Positions 540 through 58,844 of a DNA stretch of 64,000 bases are shown piece by piece. Numbering within the stretch: the first letter of the stretch is position 1; every line of letters begins with the position of its first letter. Below the pieces are notes generated by a model. It was not told the origin of the DNA and searched no databases. It saw only the letters and a list, made by a program, of their open reading frames with translations. Made by a program: the position numbers and the translations under genes. The stretch covers positions 1-64,000 of the forward strand of contig NASX01000005.1 of assembly GCA_002085155.1 (NCBI GenBank). Reading direction: 5' to 3'. Origin of the DNA: Sorangiineae bacterium NIC37A_2. Lineage in GTDB: Bacteria; Myxococcota_A; Polyangia; Polyangiales; Polyangiaceae.

Positions 540-2063
<1,524 letters not shown>

Positions 2064-2119
2064 GCCGCGATCCGAGGGCATTCAAAATGGGGTGACGCAG
2101 CGGTGCCCCCTGGGCCATC

Positions 2120-3226
2120 ATGGCCGCCATGAGCCCGGGTAGTCCGAGACCGTCCAGCCAATGCCAGTCGCATCTCCCGAGTGAGCTCGTCCGACTCCAC
2201 AGGCCGAGCCTCGCGCTCCTGCTCGCCCTGAGCCTCTCTGGAATCGCCCCGCGTTCCCTCGCGGCGACCCCGACTGCCGACGAAAAAGCTGCCGCGCGCG
2301 AGCTCGCTCTCATCGGCATGGATCTCAAGGACAAGGGGGACTGTCCCGCGGCTCTCGAGAAGCTCGAGCGCGCCGAACAGCTCTACCACGCCCCGACGAT
2401 CTTGACCGCGATCGGCGAATGCCAGATCGCCCTGGGCCGGCTCGTTGAAGGCACCGAGAACCTCAAGAAGGTCTCCCTCGAACACATCGATCCGAAAGCC
2501 TCGAGCACCTTCTTCGATGCGCAGAATCGCGCGCGAAAGCTCCTCGACGAGACGCTGCCTCGCATCGCCAAGCTCACCATCGAGCTCGATCCAGAGCTGG
2601 AGGACGTCGAGCTCCTCATCGATGATGTCAAAGTGAGTAGCGCCCTCATCGGTGTCAGGCGGCCGACCGATCCCGGGCGCCACACCGTCACCGTGCGCAA
2701 ACAAGGTTATCTCGACGCCACCGCCGAGGTGACCCTCGAAGAAGCCGGCGACGAAAAGCTGACCCTTACGCTCTCGCCCGATCCTGCCGCTGCTGCCGCG
2801 GACGAAGCCACGCCTCCGGAAGCTCTCGAGACGGACGCCTCCATTCAGACGGCGGCCGCCCCGCCCCGCCGGAAGTCGACGCAGCCGGTCCTCGGCTGGA
2901 TCGGGATCGGCGTCGGCGCGGCGGCGCTGGGCGCCGGTGCGGTCACGGGGGGCCTGGCCCTGGACCAGGCGAACCACCTGACCTGTCCGAACGACGTCTG
3001 CTCCGGGAGCGACGCAGGTCGGCTCGACTCAGCGCTCTCGCTCGCCACCGCTTCGACCATTCTGCTCGGGGCCGGCGGCGCCCTCGCGGTGACCGGGGTC
3101 ATCCTGCTTCTGACCTCCCCCTCCGAGAAAGCGAGCGCTCGCGCGCCTCTCGAGACTCAATTCGGCAACGTCCGCCTGACGCCGGAAGTCTACGCGGGCG
3201 GCGCCGGCTTCCGGGGCAGCTTTTAG
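2120..3226 (+). CDS. TPR/PEGA-domain envelope protein
   Basis: A 368-residue protein with a hydrophobic N-terminal segment (about 28-48, probable signal peptide ending near SLAA). A helical region with TPR-like features follows (about 55-140, including LKDKGDCPAALEKLERAEQL), then a PEGA-type beta domain (about 150-220) with the usual pattern of a small module ending GRHTVTVRKQGY. Two hydrophobic helices near the C-terminus (about 254-280 and 312-335) flank a short segment with two Cys. PEGA domains are usually surface or envelope beta modules. The gene directly follows a Ser/Thr kinase gene, so it may be a partner or substrate of that kinase, which is inference. The start is the first ATG; a second ATG three codons later is possible. 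Confidence 0.75.
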   Translation: MAAMSPGSPRPSSQCQSHLPSELVRLHRPSLALLLALSLSGIAPRSLAATPTADEKAAARELALIGMDLKDKGDCPAALEKLERAEQLYHAPTILTAIGECQIALGRLVEGTENLKKVSLEHIDPKASSTFFDAQNRARKLLDETLPRIAKLTIELDPELEDVELLIDDVKVSSALIGVRRPTDPGRHTVTVRKQGYLDATAEVTLEEAGDEKLTLTLSPDPAAAAADEATPPEALETDASIQTAAAPPRRKSTQPVLGWIGIGVGAAALGAGAVTGGLALDQANHLTCPNDVCSGSDAGRLDSALSLATASTILLGAGGALAVTGVILLLTSPSEKASARAPLETQFGNVRLTPEVYAGGAGFRGSF

Positions 3227-3916: not shown

Positions 3917-5857
3917 TTATCTCGCGTCTTCGTCGAGTCGACGCATGCCTTCGAGCAAGAGAGCTTCGGGGCTTGCTTGAATGACCTGAGCCTCGGCCTT
4001 CATGTTCGGATCCAGGGCAAATGTTCCGTCCTTGAGCTTCAGCATGGCGTAGAACGCCTCCTCACCCCGGAGATTTCCCCACATCGCGTTATATATCTGA
4101 CCACTCACGAAGTGGATTTCGCCGCGCTCCGACTGTGATCGAATCTTGAGGAAGCCTGTCTTTCTACCGTGCCACAGGACCTGCACCATGTCCGGCAGGC
4201 CCATCTCGCCGAGTGACCCGGAGACGCCCCGATTGAGCCCGCCCTGGACGGCCTCGCGCTCCATGATCTGCTTCAGCTTGGCGACGAGCAGATCGGCGAC
4301 GACCGGCTTAGTCATAAAGTCTTGCGCCCCGAGCTCGAAGGCCCGCCGTGCATCGGCGCTGCCCGTGCGCGAGGTCACGAAGATCCAAGGCAACTTCTGG
4401 CCCCACTCGTGTTTGCGCGCCTCAGCGAGCAGCGAAAATCCATCTCCGCCGCCCGGACCGAGATCGACCTCACTCACAACCATCTCAGCTTCACCCGACT
4501 GCAGGAGTTTGAGCGCTTGATCGATCGTGCGCGCTTGTTGAACCTCGAAGCCTTGTTCGATCATGCGCAGCTCGAGCACCGTGGTCTCTTCGGGATCGGG
4601 ATCGATCACGATCGCGCGATGGCGATTGGCCAAGAGGCGCGCCTTCAGGTCCTCACCGGTCACGGAGTGCTTGAACAAGTCGACCAAGTTCGGATCGAAG
4701 ATCGTGCCCTTGTAGCGGACCAAGACCTCACAGGCCTCTGCCGGGCGCAGCCTCTTACGGAAAGGGTTCCGAGGGTTCTGCGTGAGGTCCGCGTAGGTGT
4801 CGGCGATCGCCAAGATGCGCCCGCCGAGGGAGATATCTTTGCCGCGGAGCCCAGCCGGGAAACCCTGCCCGTCAAAGCGCTCGTACATCTGTTCGACGGC
4901 GGAGCGCGTATCGTGCGTCAGGCCCACAGCCTCCATGAGCCGAAGCGGCATCGACACGACTTTTTTCGCCTGGGCCGCGTGCCCTTCGTATTCGGCGACG
5001 TTGAGCGCGGTCAGATGATACGCGCCCATCTTTCCGAGATCGTGCACAAAGGCGGCCACCTGCAAGCTCGCGAGCTGGCTCGGGCTCAGACCGATACGCT
5101 CAGCTAGCTTTTTGATCAGCCGCGCGACCTGGGATGAGTGGCCTCGGAGATCGGGGCGTGAGTTCTCGAGAAGGCTGACAAGAACATTCAGGGTCTCGAC
5201 GTAGGCGCGGTCAGTCGCGACGCGGCCCGTCTTGTTCGAATTCTCCAGCTCTTCCGGCGAGAGAACACGCTCCCTCTTTCCGTCTTCGCGCGCGAGCGAG
5301 ACGACCATGCTCTCGTCGCTCACGAGATTCCGCTCGTAGACGTCGAGCATGTTCGTAAACTGCGCGTGAGCGGCGCGATCGAGGTTCGCGAAGGCGTGGA
5401 TGTCGCCCGAGTAGGCCTTAGCGACCGCGGCTTTGACGGCGCGCGGGCGCGCAACAAATGCACGCACCTCGCGCACCCGGCTGACCAGGCGGATCTCATC
5501 GAGCGCCGCTTGGTTGTTCGGGTCAGCGGTGACCACACTCAAGACCCCGGACGCCGGCTCAAAGAGCACCGGGAAGACCGTATGCGCCATCGCCAATTTC
5601 TTAGGGACTTTGTCGAGGGTTCCGCGATCGATGTCCGCCTTGGCGAGCTTCTCCGTCGAGACGAAGCGGGTCTGGTAGGCGTTCGCTAGGTAGCGGAGCA
5701 GCTCTCCTTCTTGGACCAGATTGGCCTCGATCAGGGCCTCTTCGGCCCGGTCGCCAAAAGCCTGGATGTGATTGAGGGCGGCCTCCCGCTGCTCTGGAGT
5801 CAAAAATCCATCCGACACCATGCGGTCGAGGATTCGCTGATTCGTGGGGGAACTCAT
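3917..5857 (-). CDS. Multidomain HD-GYP / receiver / DUF4388-like signalling protein
   Basis: A 646-residue cytoplasmic protein. In order: a GspE/MshE N-terminal-like domain (about 1-150), an HD-GYP-type domain (about 215-400), a receiver domain (about 413-530) and a C-terminal PATAN/DUF4388-like domain (about 545-625). HD-GYP domains normally hydrolyse cyclic di-GMP. The HD pair is present (His272, Asp273 in HDLGKMG), and so is a later His293. However, the usual HHE motif reads MYE (about 324-326), GYP reads GFP, and the receiver phosphoacceptor position is Glu463 rather than Asp. The protein may therefore be a binding or scaffolding version, which is inference. The ATG at 5857 is preceded by AAGAAGAGG, a good ribosome binding site. 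Confidence 0.8.
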   Translation of the reverse strand: MSSPTNQRILDRMVSDGFLTPEQREAALNHIQAFGDRAEEALIEANLVQEGELLRYLANAYQTRFVSTEKLAKADIDRGTLDKVPKKLAMAHTVFPVLFEPASGVLSVVTADPNNQAALDEIRLVSRVREVRAFVARPRAVKAAVAKAYSGDIHAFANLDRAAHAQFTNMLDVYERNLVSDESMVVSLAREDGKRERVLSPEELENSNKTGRVATDRAYVETLNVLVSLLENSRPDLRGHSSQVARLIKKLAERIGLSPSQLASLQVAAFVHDLGKMGAYHLTALNVAEYEGHAAQAKKVVSMPLRLMEAVGLTHDTRSAVEQMYERFDGQGFPAGLRGKDISLGGRILAIADTYADLTQNPRNPFRKRLRPAEACEVLVRYKGTIFDPNLVDLFKHSVTGEDLKARLLANRHRAIVIDPDPEETTVLELRMIEQGFEVQQARTIDQALKLLQSGEAEMVVSEVDLGPGGGDGFSLLAEARKHEWGQKLPWIFVTSRTGSADARRAFELGAQDFMTKPVVADLLVAKLKQIMEREAVQGGLNRGVSGSLGEMGLPDMVQVLWHGRKTGFLKIRSQSERGEIHFVSGQIYNAMWGNLRGEEAFYAMLKLKDGTFALDPNMKAEAQVIQASPEALLLEGMRRLDEDAR

Positions 5858-6371
5858 GCCTCTTCTTGGATGTTCGGGCGAACCAACACGGGCATTCGCA
5901 CAGCATGTCTCTTTGCCCGCGAACCCCACTCGATCATACAGGATTTTCCCTGTCGAGCGAGCACCGAACGTCTCTCCTCTTGTCGGAATGGCCGCAAGGT
6001 ATGCGCTCTGACATCACACACGCTTCCCGTTCCGCGCACCCGCGCACAGTCTCTCCTTCATGCGCCTCCGGGGCGCGCGCGCGGCGCGCACAACCTGAGA
6101 GAGTGGGCGGCTCATCACCTTCGATCGATCCTTGCCAAGCTCGTCTTCATCGGGTGCGATGGACGCCTCGACGCCGAGCTCCACTCTCCTTCGAGGCCCC
6201 TTGGGAACCGTCCCAACTGGACGCTCCGAGCGGCGCCCAGGCTTCCTCGGCCCGGGAGCCTGTCCGCGCGGCCCAGAAGCCAAACCTCCCGGGAAGCCCG
6301 CAGGGCGCCGCCCCCACGGCTTCATAAAGTCCCGTCGCGAGCCGGGCCCCTATGGGATGCGGCCGCTTGAC

Positions 6372-51924: not shown

Positions 51925-51997
51925 TGGTTTGCGCCAAGACGAACCCACAAAAACACCATTTTGCCCGGCGGCGCGCCGCGGCGAGGAGAGAATCGAG

Positions 51998-52354
51998 ATG
52001 AGCTCACTCTATGAGAAGATCGGCGGCGAAGCGGCCGTGGACGCCGCTGTGGACGTGTTTTACCGAAAGGTGTTAGCCGACGATCGCATCAGCCACTACT
52101 TCGACGACATCGACATGGACCGTCAACGCGTCAAGCAGAAGGCCTTCTTAACTTTCGCGTTCGGTGGCCCGGCGAACTACTCCGGGAAGGACATGCGGGC
52201 GGCTCACGCCAAGATGAACCTCTCTGAAGCCGATTTCAGCGCCGTCATGGAAAATCTCGGCGGAACCTTGAAAGAACTCGGAGTCCCCGACGAGCTCATC
52301 GCCGAAGCAGCCGCGATCGCGACCAGCGTCAAAGACGACGTCTTGAACCGCTGA
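51998..52354 (+). CDS. glbN: Truncated haemoglobin (group 1-like)
   Basis: 118 residues with a 2-over-2 globin fold. FYRKVLADDRISHYF holds the B9-B10 Phe21-Tyr22 pair and the CD-region aromatics. QKAFLTFAFGGPANY is the E-helix signature, and MRAAHAKMNL carries the proximal His70. Group 1 truncated globins bind O2 and NO, and the mycobacterial example (GlbN) is an NO dioxygenase. GAGGAGAG precedes the ATG at 51998. A stand-alone [2Fe-2S]/FAD/NAD(P)H reductase and an NsrR-like regulator follow on the same strand, suggesting NO detoxification. Confidence 0.92.
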   Translation: MSSLYEKIGGEAAVDAAVDVFYRKVLADDRISHYFDDIDMDRQRVKQKAFLTFAFGGPANYSGKDMRAAHAKMNLSEADFSAVMENLGGTLKELGVPDELIAEAAAIATSVKDDVLNR

Positions 52355-52439
52355 GCCACGGCCATCTCCGCACTCACCAAAGCAGCCACTTCCCCCTTCT
52401 CAAGGCCACCCTGCCGGCTGAATCCAACCCCTGCGAACA

Positions 52440-52471
52440 GGCGGCGAAAGCACCGAAGATCTTTCGTCGCC
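52440..52471 (+). promoter_or_regulatory. Hairpin between globin and reductase genes
   Basis: GGCGGCGAAAG (52440-52450) and CTTTCGTCGCC (52461-52471) form an 11-bp stem with one G-U pair and a 10-nt loop. No T-run follows, so it may be an RNA-processing or stabilising element separating the globin message from the reductase, rather than a full terminator. Confidence 0.4.
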
Positions 52472-52557
52472 GCTCGCCGGCCACAATACGAACGTTACTC
52501 AGCGTGGACACGACGCTTTGAGCATTGCCTGAGCGAAAGAGCTCCGAGGAGAAATCC

Positions 52558-53544
52558 ATGATCACACTGGACGGCACCACATACCAGCCGAAGGCGGGCG
52601 AATCGGTGCTCGAGTGCTTGTCGCGCCACGGCGTCTCTGTTCCCTCCTTCTGCCAGAGCGGCGTCTGCCAAACTTGTCTCATGCGGGCAGTCGAGGGCGA
52701 CATTCCCGCTCGCGCCCAGCAGGGCCTGAAGGAGTCCTTTAAGAAGCGCGGCTTTTTCCTGACCTGCGTCTGCGCTGCCGACCGCCCTCTCACGATTGAA
52801 CGAAGTCAGGCCGCCGAGCGCTTCAGCTCGCGGATCCTGGATGTGCAAGCCCTCTCATCGCGGGTCAGCCGCGTTTACCTCGAGCGACCAAGTGGCTTTC
52901 AATTCGAAGCGGGCCAGTTCGTTCAGGTGATCCGCAGGGAGGACGGCGTACGTAGGCCCTATTCGGTCGCTTCCCTCCCGAGCGCCGATCATATCGAACT
53001 CCACGTGGCGGTCTTCCCGGGCGGCGAGCTCAGTCCATGGCTCAGCTCCTCCGTCGGCGCTCAGGTTGAGCTCGAGGGGCCCTTCGGCGAGTGCGTGTAT
53101 GTACCGGTCGAACCGGAGCGCCCCCTCGTCTTGGCCGGAACAGGGACTGGCCTGGCTCCACTCATCGGAGTCTTTCGCGCAGCCCTCGAAAGCGGACACC
53201 AAGGACCCATCACGCTCTATCACGGCGCTCGAAGCGCGAGCGACCTCTACTTCACGGACGAGCTCCGCTCTCTCCTCTCAAACTCTCAACATCGCATCAT
53301 CGAGCTCATGCTCGAAGGGAACGAGTCCGAAGTCGACTCCGAGCCGCTCCTCGAAAGGCGCGTCGGAGACCTCGTCGACGTCGTCCTCGAAGAGCAGAAA
53401 GCTCCCCCTGCTGCGCGCTACTACCTGTGCGGCGCGCCCGACCTGGTCCATCGTCTGAAGAAGAAGCTCTATTTGAAGGGCGCAAGTTTGGACAAGATCC
53501 ACGCCGACCCATTCCTCTCGCGGGCGCCGCAAGCGGGCGCGTAA
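52558..53544 (+). CDS. [2Fe-2S]/FAD/NAD(P)H oxidoreductase
   Basis: 328 residues in three modules. First comes a plant-type ferredoxin (about 1-85) with Cys32, Cys37, Cys40 and Cys70, the exact CX4CX2CX29C spacing. Then a FAD domain (about 95-190) with RRPYSVAS, and an NAD(P)H domain with LVLAGTGTGLAPLIG and YLCGAPDLV. This is the layout of phenol hydroxylase or dioxygenase reductase components. Next to a truncated globin it may act as the globin's electron donor, together equalling a flavohaemoglobin split into two proteins (inference). GAGGAG precedes the ATG at 52558. Confidence 0.92.
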   Translation: MITLDGTTYQPKAGESVLECLSRHGVSVPSFCQSGVCQTCLMRAVEGDIPARAQQGLKESFKKRGFFLTCVCAADRPLTIERSQAAERFSSRILDVQALSSRVSRVYLERPSGFQFEAGQFVQVIRREDGVRRPYSVASLPSADHIELHVAVFPGGELSPWLSSSVGAQVELEGPFGECVYVPVEPERPLVLAGTGTGLAPLIGVFRAALESGHQGPITLYHGARSASDLYFTDELRSLLSNSQHRIIELMLEGNESEVDSEPLLERRVGDLVDVVLEEQKAPPAARYYLCGAPDLVHRLKKKLYLKGASLDKIHADPFLSRAPQAGA

Positions 53545-53573
53545 GCTGAGCCAAGCTCGCCTTCGATCCGATG

Positions 53574-53611
53574 CCCTGTCACTCGCGGGCGCTCTGGCGA
53601 CAATGACAGGG
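53574..53611 (+). promoter_or_regulatory. Inverted repeat upstream of nsrR
   Basis: CCCTGTCA (53574-53581) and TGACAGGG (53604-53611) form a perfect 8-bp dyad 27 bases before the nsrR start. It could be a leader hairpin or an operator unlike the AAAC dyads. Confidence 0.3.
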
Positions 53612-53638
53612 GCGACATTTTCTGAAAGACTCAGGTTC

Positions 53639-54082
53639 GTGCAGCTCACGCAACACAGCGACTATGCGCTTCGGACTTTGGTTGCCCTCGGCGCGAGCTC
53701 TCCCGATCCCCTGACAGCCGCCGAGATCAGCGCCGCTTATGGCATCTCGGTGCACCATGTCCTGAAGATCATCCAGCGCCTGTCCCTGCTCGGGTACGTC
53801 GAGACAACTCGAGGCCGCGGCGGCGGGGTGCGACTCGCGCTACCCCCGGAACAGATCCGCCTCGGGGAGCTCTTGCGCCAAACGGAAGTTGAATTCGGCG
53901 TCGTCGCCTGCCTGCGACAAGGGGATACTCCCTGCACGATTGAGCCTGCCTGCAGCCTCAAGAGCGTCTTCCAGCGAGCCACCCACGCGTTCTTCGAGGT
54001 CCTCGACCAGCACACCTTAGCTGACGTGCTCCGGCCCAAACGTGGCATCGCGCGCCTCTTGCAGCTCGGTCGCCCTGCCTGA
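53639..54082 (+). CDS. nsrR: Rrf2-family regulator, NsrR-like
   Basis: 147 residues. The winged helix-turn-helix (about 1-75) has the typical start MQLTQHSDYALRTLVAL, then YGISVHHVLKIIQRL and GYVETTRGRGGGVRLA. The cluster loop has Cys91, Cys99 and Cys105 (ACLRQGDTPCTIEPACSLKS), and Asp8 is present, the fourth ligand known in NsrR of Streptomyces. NsrR is a [4Fe-4S] repressor that releases DNA on reacting with nitric oxide. The GTG at 53639 matches the family N-terminus. It sits downstream of the globin and reductase genes, so it probably controls them. Confidence 0.9.
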   Translation: MQLTQHSDYALRTLVALGASSPDPLTAAEISAAYGISVHHVLKIIQRLSLLGYVETTRGRGGGVRLALPPEQIRLGELLRQTEVEFGVVACLRQGDTPCTIEPACSLKSVFQRATHAFFEVLDQHTLADVLRPKRGIARLLQLGRPA

Positions 54083-54264: not shown

Positions 54265-54858
54265 TCAGAGCGGGATGCGCACAACCACCCCACCCATCAC
54301 GTCGCCGATCTGAAAGTCCGTGCGCGGCGCGTCTTTGTGCTCGTTGTGACACTTCACGCAGGCCTCGGCGACGGCCACATCCGCATAGACCGCCGTGAAA
54401 TACTTCTGTCCGCCGAGCTCCTCTTCGCCGTAGAAGTTCGCGCCTTTGTTGGCTGCGACGAACTCGAGCCCCTTCTTCTCGAGGTCGGTCGACGGCTTGT
54501 TTTGCTTATTCAATGGCCACAAGCTGAGGAGCGAATAGGTAAAGCCTGCTTCTTTCTTCGCAACCATCTCCGCGCCCATGCGGAACATCTGGGCCGGGAG
54601 CGGGAGCGTCTTTTCGTCCTCCCAGTGCTCACTCGCTTTGATAATGTTCTCCTTGTTCTGCAGACGATTGACGACGTTCTTGGTGTAGACGACCCGGTCC
54701 GACTCCATGACGGCGTGCAGTGCGTCGGCGAACCGCTGCGGGGAGATTCCGGCGGCCGCGGGAGGAGCGGCTCCTTCGGGAGCGGGTGCCGCTTCTTTCT
54801 GGCAAGACAGCGGAGAAACGGCGAGGAGAATGAACAGAATGCTTCGAAAATTCTTCAT
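54265..54858 (-). CDS. DUF3365-like haem-binding lipoprotein
   Basis: About 197 residues. A lipobox (AVSPLSC, Cys19) and a Pro/Ala linker precede a domain of the Tll0287/DUF3365 type: RFADALHAVMESDRVVYTKN, then GANFYGEEELGGQKYFTAVYA and ACVKCHNEHKDAPRTDF, with a CXXCH haem c site. Such domains bind haem and occur in sensors and electron carriers. The protein is predicted to face the periplasm. It is the last gene of a minus-strand operon with a multihaem cytochrome and the FAD/Fe-S/haem-b fusion protein. Confidence 0.82.
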   Translation of the reverse strand: MKNFRSILFILLAVSPLSCQKEAAPAPEGAAPPAAAGISPQRFADALHAVMESDRVVYTKNVVNRLQNKENIIKASEHWEDEKTLPLPAQMFRMGAEMVAKKEAGFTYSLLSLWPLNKQNKPSTDLEKKGLEFVAANKGANFYGEEELGGQKYFTAVYADVAVAEACVKCHNEHKDAPRTDFQIGDVMGGVVVRIPL

Positions 54859-54904
54859 AATGACGATTTCCAAGGAGTAACGACCAAGAAACAACAGAGA
54901 TTTG

Positions 54905-56104
54905 TTATTGAATTCTTTCCATAGCCCAGTCGACGCTCAGGACGTGCGCCCCAGGCCTTCCGTCGAAGTTCTTCCGGACGAGCTCAGAGTCGGCGATCGC
55001 GTCGAGGGAGAAGGCGAGGCCGTGACAGCTCAAACAAACGCTGCGCAGCATCTTCTCGGGAGGGCGCAGGTTGTCGTTCTGGTTATGGGAGGTAAACATG
55101 ACCCCCGACTCGTCCTCTCCGGACGGCATGTGACAGGTCGCACAGGTGACAGCCCCCTTCGCCGCCATTTCGCCGCGCGCCGCGCGCTCCGCGCGCTCGA
55201 AGTGCTTCGAATCCCGATAGGCCCGCGTGTGTTCGTCGTTGTGACACCCTTCACAGGCGGTCACCGACGCGAACAGCGGGTCCTCCGGCCTCTGATGACA
55301 GCTCGCGCAGGCGAGCTCGTGTCCCGCCGCGCTCGCCTTCATCGGGAGTCGCGCGAGCGCTGGTGACATGCGCTTGAGCCCTCTCGCCGCACGCATTCCG
55401 TGTTTCCCGGAAGCAAAAGTCTGCGCCTGTGGGGCGTGACAATCCGCGCAAGAAGCGTCACCACCTCCGCTTCCGAGGCGCGCGCGCTCCTCGGAAGGAC
55501 AAGGTTTCGCATCGATCCTCTGCGCGAGCGGTGCACTCAAGACCTCCGGCTCTCCCGCGTGTTTGACGAGGAAGTCCTCGTAGATGCCGCGGTTGTCGTG
55601 ATAGTTGTGGCAACCGCTCGAAGCGCAGCTGTCGAAGGCGAGCCCTTGATGGGAGGGACGCTCTTGTCCGATCTCCTGGTGACAGCGGAAGCAGTAGTCA
55701 CGCGGCAAACTCAGGCCCATCTCGGTGGTGCGCCCGGGAGCGTGCTCGACGTGACACGTCAGACAAGAGCGAGCGTCGAGCTCGGCGATGCGACTTGCGT
55801 TCCGAGGGTCAGTGAACTTGCTCTTCGGGTGGGAGTCTTTGGACGCGGTGAGCTCAGCGCCATGGCAGTGAACACAAGCGCCGTCGAGATCTTCGGTGCT
55901 CGAGAAGGAAGCGGTGTGGCACCCGGCACAGTCGAGCTCGATTTGATAGTGGCCCGAGCTCGTCGGCCCCGGCAGAAAGATGGCGCGAGCCTCGGACTTC
56001 TCACTGTTCATGATCGCCCCAAGCCCCGAGGCGGAGAGCGCCGTGACGAGGAGGAAAAGCGCCCAAGAGCGGCGCGAGGTCGAGGACTCGTTCGCGTCAG
56101 CCAT
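54905..56104 (-). CDS. Multihaem cytochrome c (about ten haems)
   Basis: 399 residues, anchored or exported through one N-terminal helix (about 13-33). Nine CXXCH motifs are seen (CAGCH, CVHCH, CLTCH, CFRCH, CADCH, CASCH, CEGCH, CATCH, CLSCH) plus one CX4CH (CASSGCH), giving ten likely haems. No CXXCK active-site motif of NrfA is present. The arrangement recalls cytochromes of nitrogen and metal respiration. It overlaps the upstream fusion gene by one base (TGATG), which is strong coupling. It could accept electrons from the membrane haems of the fusion protein. Confidence 0.92.
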   Translation of the reverse strand: MADANESSTSRRSWALFLLVTALSASGLGAIMNSEKSEARAIFLPGPTSSGHYQIELDCAGCHTASFSSTEDLDGACVHCHGAELTASKDSHPKSKFTDPRNASRIAELDARSCLTCHVEHAPGRTTEMGLSLPRDYCFRCHQEIGQERPSHQGLAFDSCASSGCHNYHDNRGIYEDFLVKHAGEPEVLSAPLAQRIDAKPCPSEERARLGSGGGDASCADCHAPQAQTFASGKHGMRAARGLKRMSPALARLPMKASAAGHELACASCHQRPEDPLFASVTACEGCHNDEHTRAYRDSKHFERAERAARGEMAAKGAVTCATCHMPSGEDESGVMFTSHNQNDNLRPPEKMLRSVCLSCHGLAFSLDAIADSELVRKNFDGRPGAHVLSVDWAMERIQ

Positions 56105-58176
56105 CAGAAGAAGTAGACCTTTGCGATGTGAGCTAGGAGCAGGACCGGTAGCGGCCAGAGCGCGTAGATGTGGATGCGGTTCACCCAGCGCCGGAGGCGC
56201 GGACGCTCACGCTCGGAGGCCCACTCGGGCGACAGCGCGGCGAAAGCTCCGAGCAGCGTGCCCAGGAGGACGACCAAGATGAGCCCGCGATCGAGGCCGT
56301 GGCCGAGACGCAGCCCCGTGTGCAGAATGAGCCCAACCAAACCCAGCACTCCCACGAGCGCGTGGAATGTCCGGAGACTTTCGAAGCGAAGGCGGCCGAG
56401 CCACCTCAAGCGCTTCCTGACGGACATGAGGAGCCCAACGAGATAGAGCCCAGCGAGGGAGAACCCTGTCCACTGTTTGAGGCCCTTGTCGCGCCAGAGC
56501 GCATCGTAGGGAGCCTCCTGGATCGAATCAGAAAAGGGAATCGGCGAGGCAAGCAAGTACAGAGCAGCAAGTAGGGCGGCGACGATCGAAAGAGGCCCGA
56601 GCCACAAAGATCGCTCCGGCGCCTCGACAGGGGCGAACAGGCTCGCGACCAGCTGCTCACAGGTTCCACACACCCGAGAGGCGCCCGTCCTTTGACAGAC
56701 GAGCTCAAGAGAATCACATCCCGCCTCTCGCGCCCGCCTGAGAGCGCCTGCCGTGACTCCTGTGCAGGTACAGACCGTCGCCGTTTCGGGCCAATCGAGG
56801 ATCGTGAGGTGTGCCTGTCGAAAGACCTGCTCCCCCTTCCGAAGACGCGTGAGCTCAGCTCGGCCGACTCGGTCTCTCCGCGCCAGCGCACTCTCCACTC
56901 GACTCAGCTCCGACCACTCTCCGATGACGACGGCCCCGATCAGCCGGTCCCTTGAGACGACGAGCCTGCGATAGCTCTTAGGGTCTTGGTAAACCGCGAC
57001 GTCGACCCCGAGGCCCGTGGCGCCACTCTCCCCGAGCACCGTCACCGGCAGGCCCTCGAACTTGAGCCGCGTCCCTACAGCGCTCGGCTCGAATCGAGCG
57101 TCGTTTCTTCCTCCGAGGTGCTCCGCGAGCACCTCGGCCATCGCGTACCCCGGGGCTACGAGACCAAGAGTGAACCCCCGGTACCTCGCGCACTCGCCGA
57201 TCGCGTAGATCTTCGGATCACTCGTACGAAGAACGTCATCGACCTCGACGCCGCCAAAAAGATCACAGGTCAGTCCGGCCGCACTCGCCAGTTTATCTCG
57301 GGGCCGGACGCCCATCGCCAGAACCACGAGGCCAAAGGCCTGCGCCGGAGCTCCTTCACATTCGACGAGCGTGCCCCGCTCCTGCTCACTGAACTGAGCG
57401 ATGCGCGCCGACATATGGAAGGTCAGCCCAGGGCGAACCAGCCCTTGGAGGAGCGCGCGCCCTGCATGTGCCTCGATCTGCCGCGACAGGGGATAGGGCT
57501 GCGCATCGAAGACGTGGACCGAATGCCCTTCGGCGAGGAGCACGTCCGCGAGTTCGAGGCCGAGCAGCCCCGCGCCCACGACAGCGACAGGGAGCCCAGC
57601 CTCACGTGCCCGCAGGGCCAGGGCGAGGACTTCCTCTGCGTCGCTCATCGAGCGGAAGGGGCGCACATCCCGCCCGGTGTTGCCCGGGATTTTTCCGAGC
57701 ACCGGCTGCGACCCGGTCGCGAGCACGAGCACGTCATAGGGCGCCTCGAGACCGCTCGCTGAGATCACGACCGCCCGCTCCCGATCGATCTGGACCACCG
57801 GATCCGCGTGGAGCGTGACATTCGCATCTCGAAACCAAGCCTCTTCTTTCAGGGCCAGGTCGGCGGGAGGCGCCCCACTTAGCCTCCTCGCGAGGTGCAC
57901 CCGGTCATAGGGCGGCTCGTCCCCGAACACGCGCAGACTCGAGCCCGCAAATTGCTCCCGGGCCCGAATTTCTTCGCAAAAGCGTTGGCCGACCATGCCA
58001 TGGCCGACCACCACGATCCGACCGGGAACAGCTGGGATTTCCCGCTTCTCCTGGTCTCGGGGCCGCGCTTGATCCCCCTCCCGCCCGAGGCCGATCTCCG
58101 CTGGTACGCTCTCGCGCGGAAGATCTTCCTCACGCACACGCGCCATCGAGTCGGGGGTTGTCGTGAGAGTCGCCAT
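56104..58176 (-). CDS. FAD oxidoreductase - Bfd [2Fe-2S] - dihaem cytochrome b fusion
   Basis: 690 residues in four parts. A charged N-terminus (1-50) comes first, then a pyridine-nucleotide disulfide reductase fold like the N-terminal half of NirB (about 53-440) with VVVGHGMVGQRF, VLVLATGSQP, VAVVGAGLLGLELADVL and YAIGECARY. A Bfd-like [2Fe-2S] domain follows, with Cys469, Cys471, Cys503 and Cys506 (CXC-X31-CXXC). Finally there is a membrane domain of four helices (about 525-690). It contains two H-X13-H motifs, His605/His619 and His669/His683, the spacing of the dihaem cytochrome b of bc1 complexes. It is therefore predicted to pass electrons from NAD(P)H through flavin and Fe-S to membrane haems. 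First gene of an operon with the multihaem cytochrome. Confidence 0.85.
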   Translation of the reverse strand: MATLTTTPDSMARVREEDLPRESVPAEIGLGREGDQARPRDQEKREIPAVPGRIVVVGHGMVGQRFCEEIRAREQFAGSSLRVFGDEPPYDRVHLARRLSGAPPADLALKEEAWFRDANVTLHADPVVQIDRERAVVISASGLEAPYDVLVLATGSQPVLGKIPGNTGRDVRPFRSMSDAEEVLALALRAREAGLPVAVVGAGLLGLELADVLLAEGHSVHVFDAQPYPLSRQIEAHAGRALLQGLVRPGLTFHMSARIAQFSEQERGTLVECEGAPAQAFGLVVLAMGVRPRDKLASAAGLTCDLFGGVEVDDVLRTSDPKIYAIGECARYRGFTLGLVAPGYAMAEVLAEHLGGRNDARFEPSAVGTRLKFEGLPVTVLGESGATGLGVDVAVYQDPKSYRRLVVSRDRLIGAVVIGEWSELSRVESALARRDRVGRAELTRLRKGEQVFRQAHLTILDWPETATVCTCTGVTAGALRRAREAGCDSLELVCQRTGASRVCGTCEQLVASLFAPVEAPERSLWLGPLSIVAALLAALYLLASPIPFSDSIQEAPYDALWRDKGLKQWTGFSLAGLYLVGLLMSVRKRLRWLGRLRFESLRTFHALVGVLGLVGLILHTGLRLGHGLDRGLILVVLLGTLLGAFAALSPEWASERERPRLRRWVNRIHIYALWPLPVLLLAHIAKVYFF

Positions 58177-58376: not shown

Positions 58377-58844
58377 CTATTTCTGGGGTGCGTCGCAGCG
58401 CTCCGTCGAACGAGGAGCATCCGCCTGCAGCCACGCAAGGAGGGTCTCTTTGTCCTTCGGATCAAGGGGCGTGACCTTCGGGGTCACGAGCGCATCGAGC
58501 GGCGGCATCAAGTCGGCCGCGACCATTTGTTTCATCAGGACAAAGATCGGCTTGCCGCTCCTTGAGGCTTGCACATCGTCGTACCGGACCATACCGAAGG
58601 GCGCGTCGTTTTCGGTCGGGTCCCAATGACAGCGCCGACAGCTCCGCTCAAGGACCGCCTCGACATCACAGGGGAATCCCGGTTCGGGTGAGCGGCGACC
58701 GAGCCAGGGGAGCGACTCGGCGGCGGCTTTTTCCGACGACTTTGCGCCGGCCTCGGCCGGAGGCACTTCACTCTTCTCCTTCTCACAAGCGAAGGAGAAC
58801 AGCGCGAGCAATGGTACCAAGAAAAGGGGACTACTGAGCTTCAC
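58377..58844 (-). CDS. Monohaem c-type cytochrome lipoprotein
   Basis: 155 residues. The signal peptide ends with a lipobox (LFSFAC, Cys20) and a Glu/Ala/Lys spacer. One CXXCH motif (SCRRCHWDPTE) marks a c-type haem, with MVAADLMPP providing a possible axial Met. It resembles small periplasmic electron carriers. GTG start. It is upstream of the fusion operon on the same strand, but the 200-bp gap with its own dyads suggests separate control. Confidence 0.8.
   Translation of the reverse strand: MKLSSPLFLVPLLALFSFACEKEKSEVPPAEAGAKSSEKAAAESLPWLGRRSPEPGFPCDVEAVLERSCRRCHWDPTENDAPFGMVRYDDVQASRSGKPIFVLMKQMVAADLMPPLDALVTPKVTPLDPKDKETLLAWLQADAPRSTERCDAPQK

Follow-up and report, generated by a model that had tools for sequence, protein, structure and literature searches.

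A NirB-type flavoprotein fused to a predicted dihaem membrane domain: a candidate NAD(P)H-to-periplasm electron conduit

We analyzed a 64,000-nucleotide stretch of contig NASX01000005.1 from Sorangiineae bacterium NIC37A_2 (hereafter the window) and found a gene whose single product joins a NirB-type reductase module, a Bfd-type [2Fe-2S] domain and a membrane domain with four invariant histidines. This fusion gene is the first of a conserved three-gene cassette that is often accompanied by a globin gene and at some loci by nitrate genes. Reading these sequence features together, we propose that the fusion could act as a conduit for electrons from NAD(P)H to the periplasm, probably in nitrite/NO homeostasis, a statement to which we assign, as a whole, a probability of about one half.

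A NirB-type front end joined to a membrane domain

The open reading frame had been called in a first-pass annotation that named no strand; it was borne out and lies on the minus strand (Table 1). Pfam recovered Pyr_redox_2 (residues 53–332, E = 4.7e-39), Rubredoxin_C (residues 369–432, E = 1.4e-8) and Fer2_BFD in the predicted protein, each above cut-off. With the invariant histidines described below, these matches uphold the annotation's reading of a FAD/NAD(P)H reductase, a Bfd domain and a membrane domain in one polypeptide, and its motif descriptions proved exact down to the residue numbers: the Bfd cysteines follow the pattern C469-x-C471-X31-C503-xx-C506, and the membrane domain carries H605-X13-H619 and H669-X13-H683, the only HX13H pairs in the whole protein.

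FAD/NAD(P)H, rubredoxin-reductase-like C-terminal and Bfd domains occur in the same order in NirB, the large subunit of assimilatory NADH nitrite reductase. However, where NirB has a sirohaem/4Fe-4S nitrite reductase domain, the fusion has its predicted dihaem membrane domain. The NCBIfam NirB model aligned to residues 54–514 and scored 338 bits against a cut-off of 578 bits, a shortfall explained by the missing sirohaem half. Pfam gave no NIR_SIR (sirohaem/4Fe-4S) match in the fusion, which is therefore not a NirB nitrite reductase. In the open-licence literature that we searched we found no published description of a NirB-Bfd-dihaem membrane architecture, so that within this literature the annotation's statement that it knew of no described enzyme with such a domain order stands.

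Table 1. Features of the fusion cassette and its surroundings in the window
Feature	Position	Strand	Evidence and remarks
NirB-like / Bfd / putative dihaem-b membrane fusion protein, 690 aa	56104..58176	-	Stop codon overlaps the following start codon by one base (TGATG)
NirB-type FAD/NAD(P)H reductase module, residues about 53–455	56812..58020	-	Pyr_redox_2, Rubredoxin_C, NirB profile; cytoplasmic by inference
Bfd-type [2Fe-2S] domain, residues 467–514, CXC-X31-CXXC	56635..56778	-	PF04324, E 3.7e-8; four Cys invariant
Membrane domain of the fusion, residues 519–690, five predicted helices	56107..56622	-	His invariance, AF2, loop charges
Periplasmic multihaem cytochrome c, 9 CXXCH + 1 CX4CH	54905..56104	-	Conserved directly after the fusion gene
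Tll0287 / sCache-haem lipoprotein, one CXXCH	54265..54894	-	PF11845, 4.3e-22; likely true start ATG near 54858
Truncated haemoglobin	51929..52354	+	PF01152, 1e-19; L035 has an orthologue (78% identity) next to its cassette
Fer2-FNR flavin reductase (2Fe-2S + FAD + NAD), possible globin reductase	52525..53544	+	Also beside the cassette in L035
Rrf2-family regulator, nearest NsrR	53603..54082	+	PF02082, 3.9e-32; NsrR model 110.5 of 182 bits, below cut-off
Small lipoprotein-like ORF, one CXXCH, 200-base gap upstream of the fusion gene	58377..58844	-	

Predicted haem sites in the membrane domain

Hydropathy and an AF2 model of the membrane domain built without haem (pLDDT 84.1, pTM 0.80) agreed on five helices rather than the four originally described, with the histidine ligands in TM3 and TM5. 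The TM2-3 and TM4-5 loops carry +7/-1 and +6/-3 charges, compared with +3/-4 in TM1-2, a pattern that by the positive-inside rule puts the N-terminal modules on the cytoplasmic side. TM3 and TM5 run parallel by ordinary topology, which should make partners of H605/H669 and of H619/H683. The two pairs presumably form bis-His haem b sites, that of H605/H669 towards the cytoplasm and that of H619/H683 towards the periplasm.

The two HX13H motifs had been likened to the haem ligands of cytochrome b in bc1. The spacing is indeed shared, but it also occurs in other families, and no Pfam profile for cytochrome b (bc1/b6f) matched the fusion at E ≤ 1; we rejected a bc1-type identity on these grounds. 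The membrane part falls outside the curated Pfam and NCBIfam families, and it matches no known haem-free family, a possibility for which the annotation had allowed. Ferric_reduct (PF01794) matched with E values of 0.024 and 0.012, both below the gathering score, and Ni_hydr_CYTB with 0.13, again below cut-off. Searching with the membrane model, Foldseek returned no match at E ≤ 1e-3. VIA-align placed talin and designed bundles on top, followed by 4D2, b561, FdnI, Dcytb, Hya cytochrome b, SpNOX and b6f (Z 8–11), all of them within helical-bundle noise, so that no one known haem-b family stood out as the nearest in structure. A PDB sequence search with membrane profiles yielded nothing credible.

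Invariant ligands in a single clade of fusions

Full-length orthologues (L071, L072 and L035) occur in the family and order to which the window belongs; so do an orthologue split over two contigs (L073 and L074) and two fusion paralogues in each of six genomes of one genus, g14, in which a long linker separates the Bfd and membrane domains. Others come from elsewhere in this phylum (L124 and L125, of different families) and from other phyla, namely one Nitrospirota-like genome (L154) and three Planctomycetota-like genomes (L155–L157). The spread is patchy, with a strong match in 10 of the 289 genomes of the class, and among plasmid records only ordinary NirB was matched.

All four cysteines and four histidines were invariant in a 10-row full-length alignment, in which identity to the window protein was 34–42%, and the membrane histidines were invariant in all 13 membrane domains aligned, from three phyla. 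Loss of the histidines in homologues, which the annotation had said would tell against its reading, was thus not seen, and such invariance argues that the Cys/His pattern is not a product of chance. The fusions formed one clade when 49 membrane cores were placed in a tree (support 99/99; recovered in 99% of the bootstrap trees), which fits one origin of the fusion. The second g14 paralogue (L069, L103) is about 1050 aa long, with a long P/S/E-rich linker, and has no multihaem c gene nearby.

A cassette with a multihaem cytochrome c and a haem lipoprotein

The fusion and cytochrome c genes overlap by stop and start on the minus strand, an arrangement of translational coupling, and the order fusion-cytochrome-Tll0287 is kept at all orthologous loci whose sequence extends far enough, except that of the second g14 paralogue. 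The fusion had been pictured as a one-protein transmembrane wire. The idea of an electron wire is well supported by the domains, the invariant histidines, the positive-inside loops and the coupled multihaem cytochrome of nearly all orthologues; the single-protein part falls, because the fusion is the first gene of a conserved three-gene cassette. Pairwise distances correlated between fusion and cytochrome with r = 0.83, a value partly driven by one close pair, between cytochrome and Tll0287 protein with 0.63, and between fusion and Tll0287 protein with 0.32.

Orthologues of the cytochrome have 10 CXXCH motifs and one CX4CH, versus nine and one in the window copy, indicating that the latter lost haem 6. 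The window cytochrome also lacks two nearby histidines kept by all complete aligned orthologues, and it retains the unusual CX4CH. The orthologue alignment contains 12 conserved non-motif histidines for 11 haems, so that every haem could be bis-His. The best PDB matches to the cytochrome profile were local ones to cytochrome c nitrite reductases (NrfA and octahaem, E = 3.5e-8 to 1e-6). The conserved motifs of the cytochrome include no CXXCK catalytic haem of the kind found in NrfA and octahaem nitrite reductases, and this, together with the possible bis-His ligation of all haems, suggests that the protein may only carry electrons. An AF2 model of the cytochrome reached a pLDDT of 44.7 and was set aside.

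The third cassette protein has the haem motif CVKCH and is a stand-alone sort of sCache-haem protein, also matched by the Tll0287 fold profile. Domains of this type bind NO tightly when fused to signalling modules, whereas stand-alone ones bind it weakly and have a presumed redox role (PMC12889525). At three loci the cassette is followed by a small mono-haem lipoprotein cytochrome (L124:5480-5971, minus strand; L125, about 5577-5960, minus strand; L156:5027-5455, minus strand). No homologue of the small ORF upstream of the fusion gene in the window was found at other cassette loci.

Globin and nitrate genes near the cassette

A globin gene lies at nine of the 12 cassette loci. At seven of these (L071, L074, L125 and L154–L157) it encodes a single-domain globin, and at the other two, the window and L035, a truncated globin together with a Fer2-FNR reductase. 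Nitrate ABC transporter genes of the NrtABCD type adjoin the cassette at L071, L072 and L154, with NarK at L071 and L154, and at L125 the globin gene and a NirB-NirD fusion are divergent from the cassette; nitrate transporters or NirBD thus occur at only four of the 12 loci. In the window, the truncated globin, the Fer2-FNR reductase and the Rrf2/NsrR-like regulator (51929-54082, plus strand) converge on the cassette, possibly as a split NO-detoxification unit. PADLOC reported nothing relevant.

This company resembles the logic of narK-bjgb-flp-nasC in Bradyrhizobium japonicum, which unites nitrate uptake and assimilation, a globin and an NAD(P)H flavoprotein, and in which globin and flavoprotein guard against NO from nitrate assimilation (PMC4724949). 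That system, however, is a four-gene operon with neither a membrane haem domain nor a multihaem cytochrome c, and the cassette has both. We rejected the idea that the cassette replaces a sirohaem nitrite reductase, as NIR_SIR genes were present in 12 of 12 cassette genomes searched. NirB-like genes occurred in about nine, and nitrite assimilation should therefore have no need of the cassette. Elsewhere in the window's genome, contig C63 (L076:3848-11702, plus strand) carries an unusual nitrate assimilation set that includes a true NirB: a gene fusing HemD, NirB and NirD, and after it those for a DmsBC-like fusion protein and a molybdopterin oxidoreductase.

Relatives with other input modules

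Profile searches uncovered distant relatives of the membrane domain in stand-alone proteins of ~300 aa, in fusions with cNMP and 4Fe-4S domains, and in one fusion with 4Fe-4S and TrxR-like domains (L120). Both HX13H motifs were present in 36 of 36 such relatives, a figure biased by the choice of ORFs partly by motif count, and the four histidines were invariant among 13 stand-alone members. Aligned by hhalign, the fusion and the distant membrane domains matched over TM2–TM4 with a probability of 98.3% (E = 1.8e-14). Most distant relatives adjoin genes with 3–14 CXXCH motifs visible in short flanks, and larger flanks revealed cytochromes with 28–29.

These unnamed dihaem cytochromes therefore share with the fusion a homologous membrane domain, the four histidines and a multihaem c neighbor, but they have another input module or none, some 120 extra residues inserted between TM4 and TM5, and different, often larger cytochromes. 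Because the 36 relatives keep the HX13H motifs, carry other inputs and mostly adjoin multihaem c genes, the domain looks like a haem-b unit fed by varied electron inputs and serving multihaem cytochromes, here with a NirB front end. Proteins with cNMP, 4Fe-4S and dihaem membrane domains (L087/L099, L089/L102, L091, L108, L112 and L123; that of L089 is shorter) adjoin very large multihaem cytochromes, those of L099 and L102 having 28–29 CXXCH, and these loci apparently represent undescribed electron-export systems. The L120 protein (1039-3225, minus strand), a different NAD(P)H-type fusion that combines 4Fe-4S and a TrxR-like flavoprotein with the dihaem module, sits next to an 11-CXXCH cytochrome.

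Discussion

The sequence data establish the domains, the invariant ligands, the conserved cassette, the single clade and the neighboring globin and nitrate genes; we infer haem occupancy, the substrate, the direction of the electrons and a contact between fusion and cytochrome c as follows. The fusion would be an NAD(P)H-oxidizing, NirB-type flavoprotein anchored in the membrane, a dihaem-b membrane domain having been swapped in for the sirohaem half. Electrons would pass from NAD(P)H to FAD and on to the [2Fe-2S] cluster of the Bfd domain, then to the haem b held by H605/H669 and across to that held by H619/H683, from which the co-encoded 10/11-haem cytochrome c would deliver them to a periplasmic acceptor; the sCache-haem lipoprotein may be a further haem carrier or a sensor. 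We have good confidence in this path and its outward direction. Granted the path, a role with nitrogen oxides seems rather probable, and the likeliest job would be nitrite/NO homeostasis tied to nitrate use, alongside the cytoplasmic globin. That the cassette is itself an NAD(P)H-driven periplasmic nitrite/NO reductase, its 11-haem cytochrome reducing a nitrogen oxide so that with the globin both compartments are protected, is a bolder proposal that we consider doubtful.

The same electron logic is known from NOX, FRE and STEAP proteins, in which NAD(P)H reduces a flavin that feeds two membrane haems, held by paired histidines in two helices, with electrons leaving outward. The fusion could accordingly be an exporter of this kind, passing electrons to O2 or an extracellular metal instead of nitrogen oxides, and the sub-cut-off Ferric_reduct matches and the 12–29-haem cytochromes beside distant relatives, as in extracellular electron transfer, fit such a function. 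The resemblance is limited, however. The fusion has another flavoprotein fold, an N-terminal Pyr_redox_2 domain rather than the C-terminal FNR-type domain of the Ferric_reduct/NOX family, and hence a reversed domain order; it adds a [2Fe-2S] relay and a dedicated multihaem c partner; and the Ferric_reduct match stays under cut-off. Export to O2 or metal would also leave the globin and nitrate-gene company without explanation, and we think it unlikely.

Quinones are often the partners of dihaem membrane cytochromes of the b561/FdnI type, and the membrane domain could likewise trade electrons with quinone. The protein would then be chiefly an NAD(P)H:quinone reductase or a branch linked to quinone, with quinol feeding the multihaem cytochrome. 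The weak, sub-threshold Ni_hydr_CYTB match and the middling VIA-align matches to FdnI and b561 lean in this direction, but the structural matches lie under the noise level for helical bundles, and the second haem pair towards the periplasm and the coupled cytochrome gene also count against this reading; involvement of quinone is in our judgment improbable. Running the chain inward, with the periplasmic cytochrome reducing NAD(P)+ through the membrane haems at the expense of the membrane potential, would need only the same parts and has a precedent in the reverse electron flow of chemolithotrophs. Yet among the carriers are large-genome bacteria, Polyangia-like and planctomycete-like, in which we saw no hint of lithotrophy, and NirB-type modules normally oxidize NAD(P)H, which makes inward flow very unlikely.

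We rate the fusion as a candidate NAD(P)H-to-periplasm flavo/haem conduit, an already-known sort of device, newly built from a NirB front end. If the path is as proposed, a single polypeptide would directly and compactly link NAD(P)H to a periplasmic multihaem cytochrome, apparently bypassing the quinone pool. The membrane domain points to a broader, unnamed family of dihaem membrane modules with interchangeable input domains beside multihaem cytochromes. In Myxococcota-, Planctomycetota- and Nitrospirota-like bacteria, the conserved cassette and the globin and nitrate genes around it offer a concrete, testable candidate system for dealing with nitrogen oxides.
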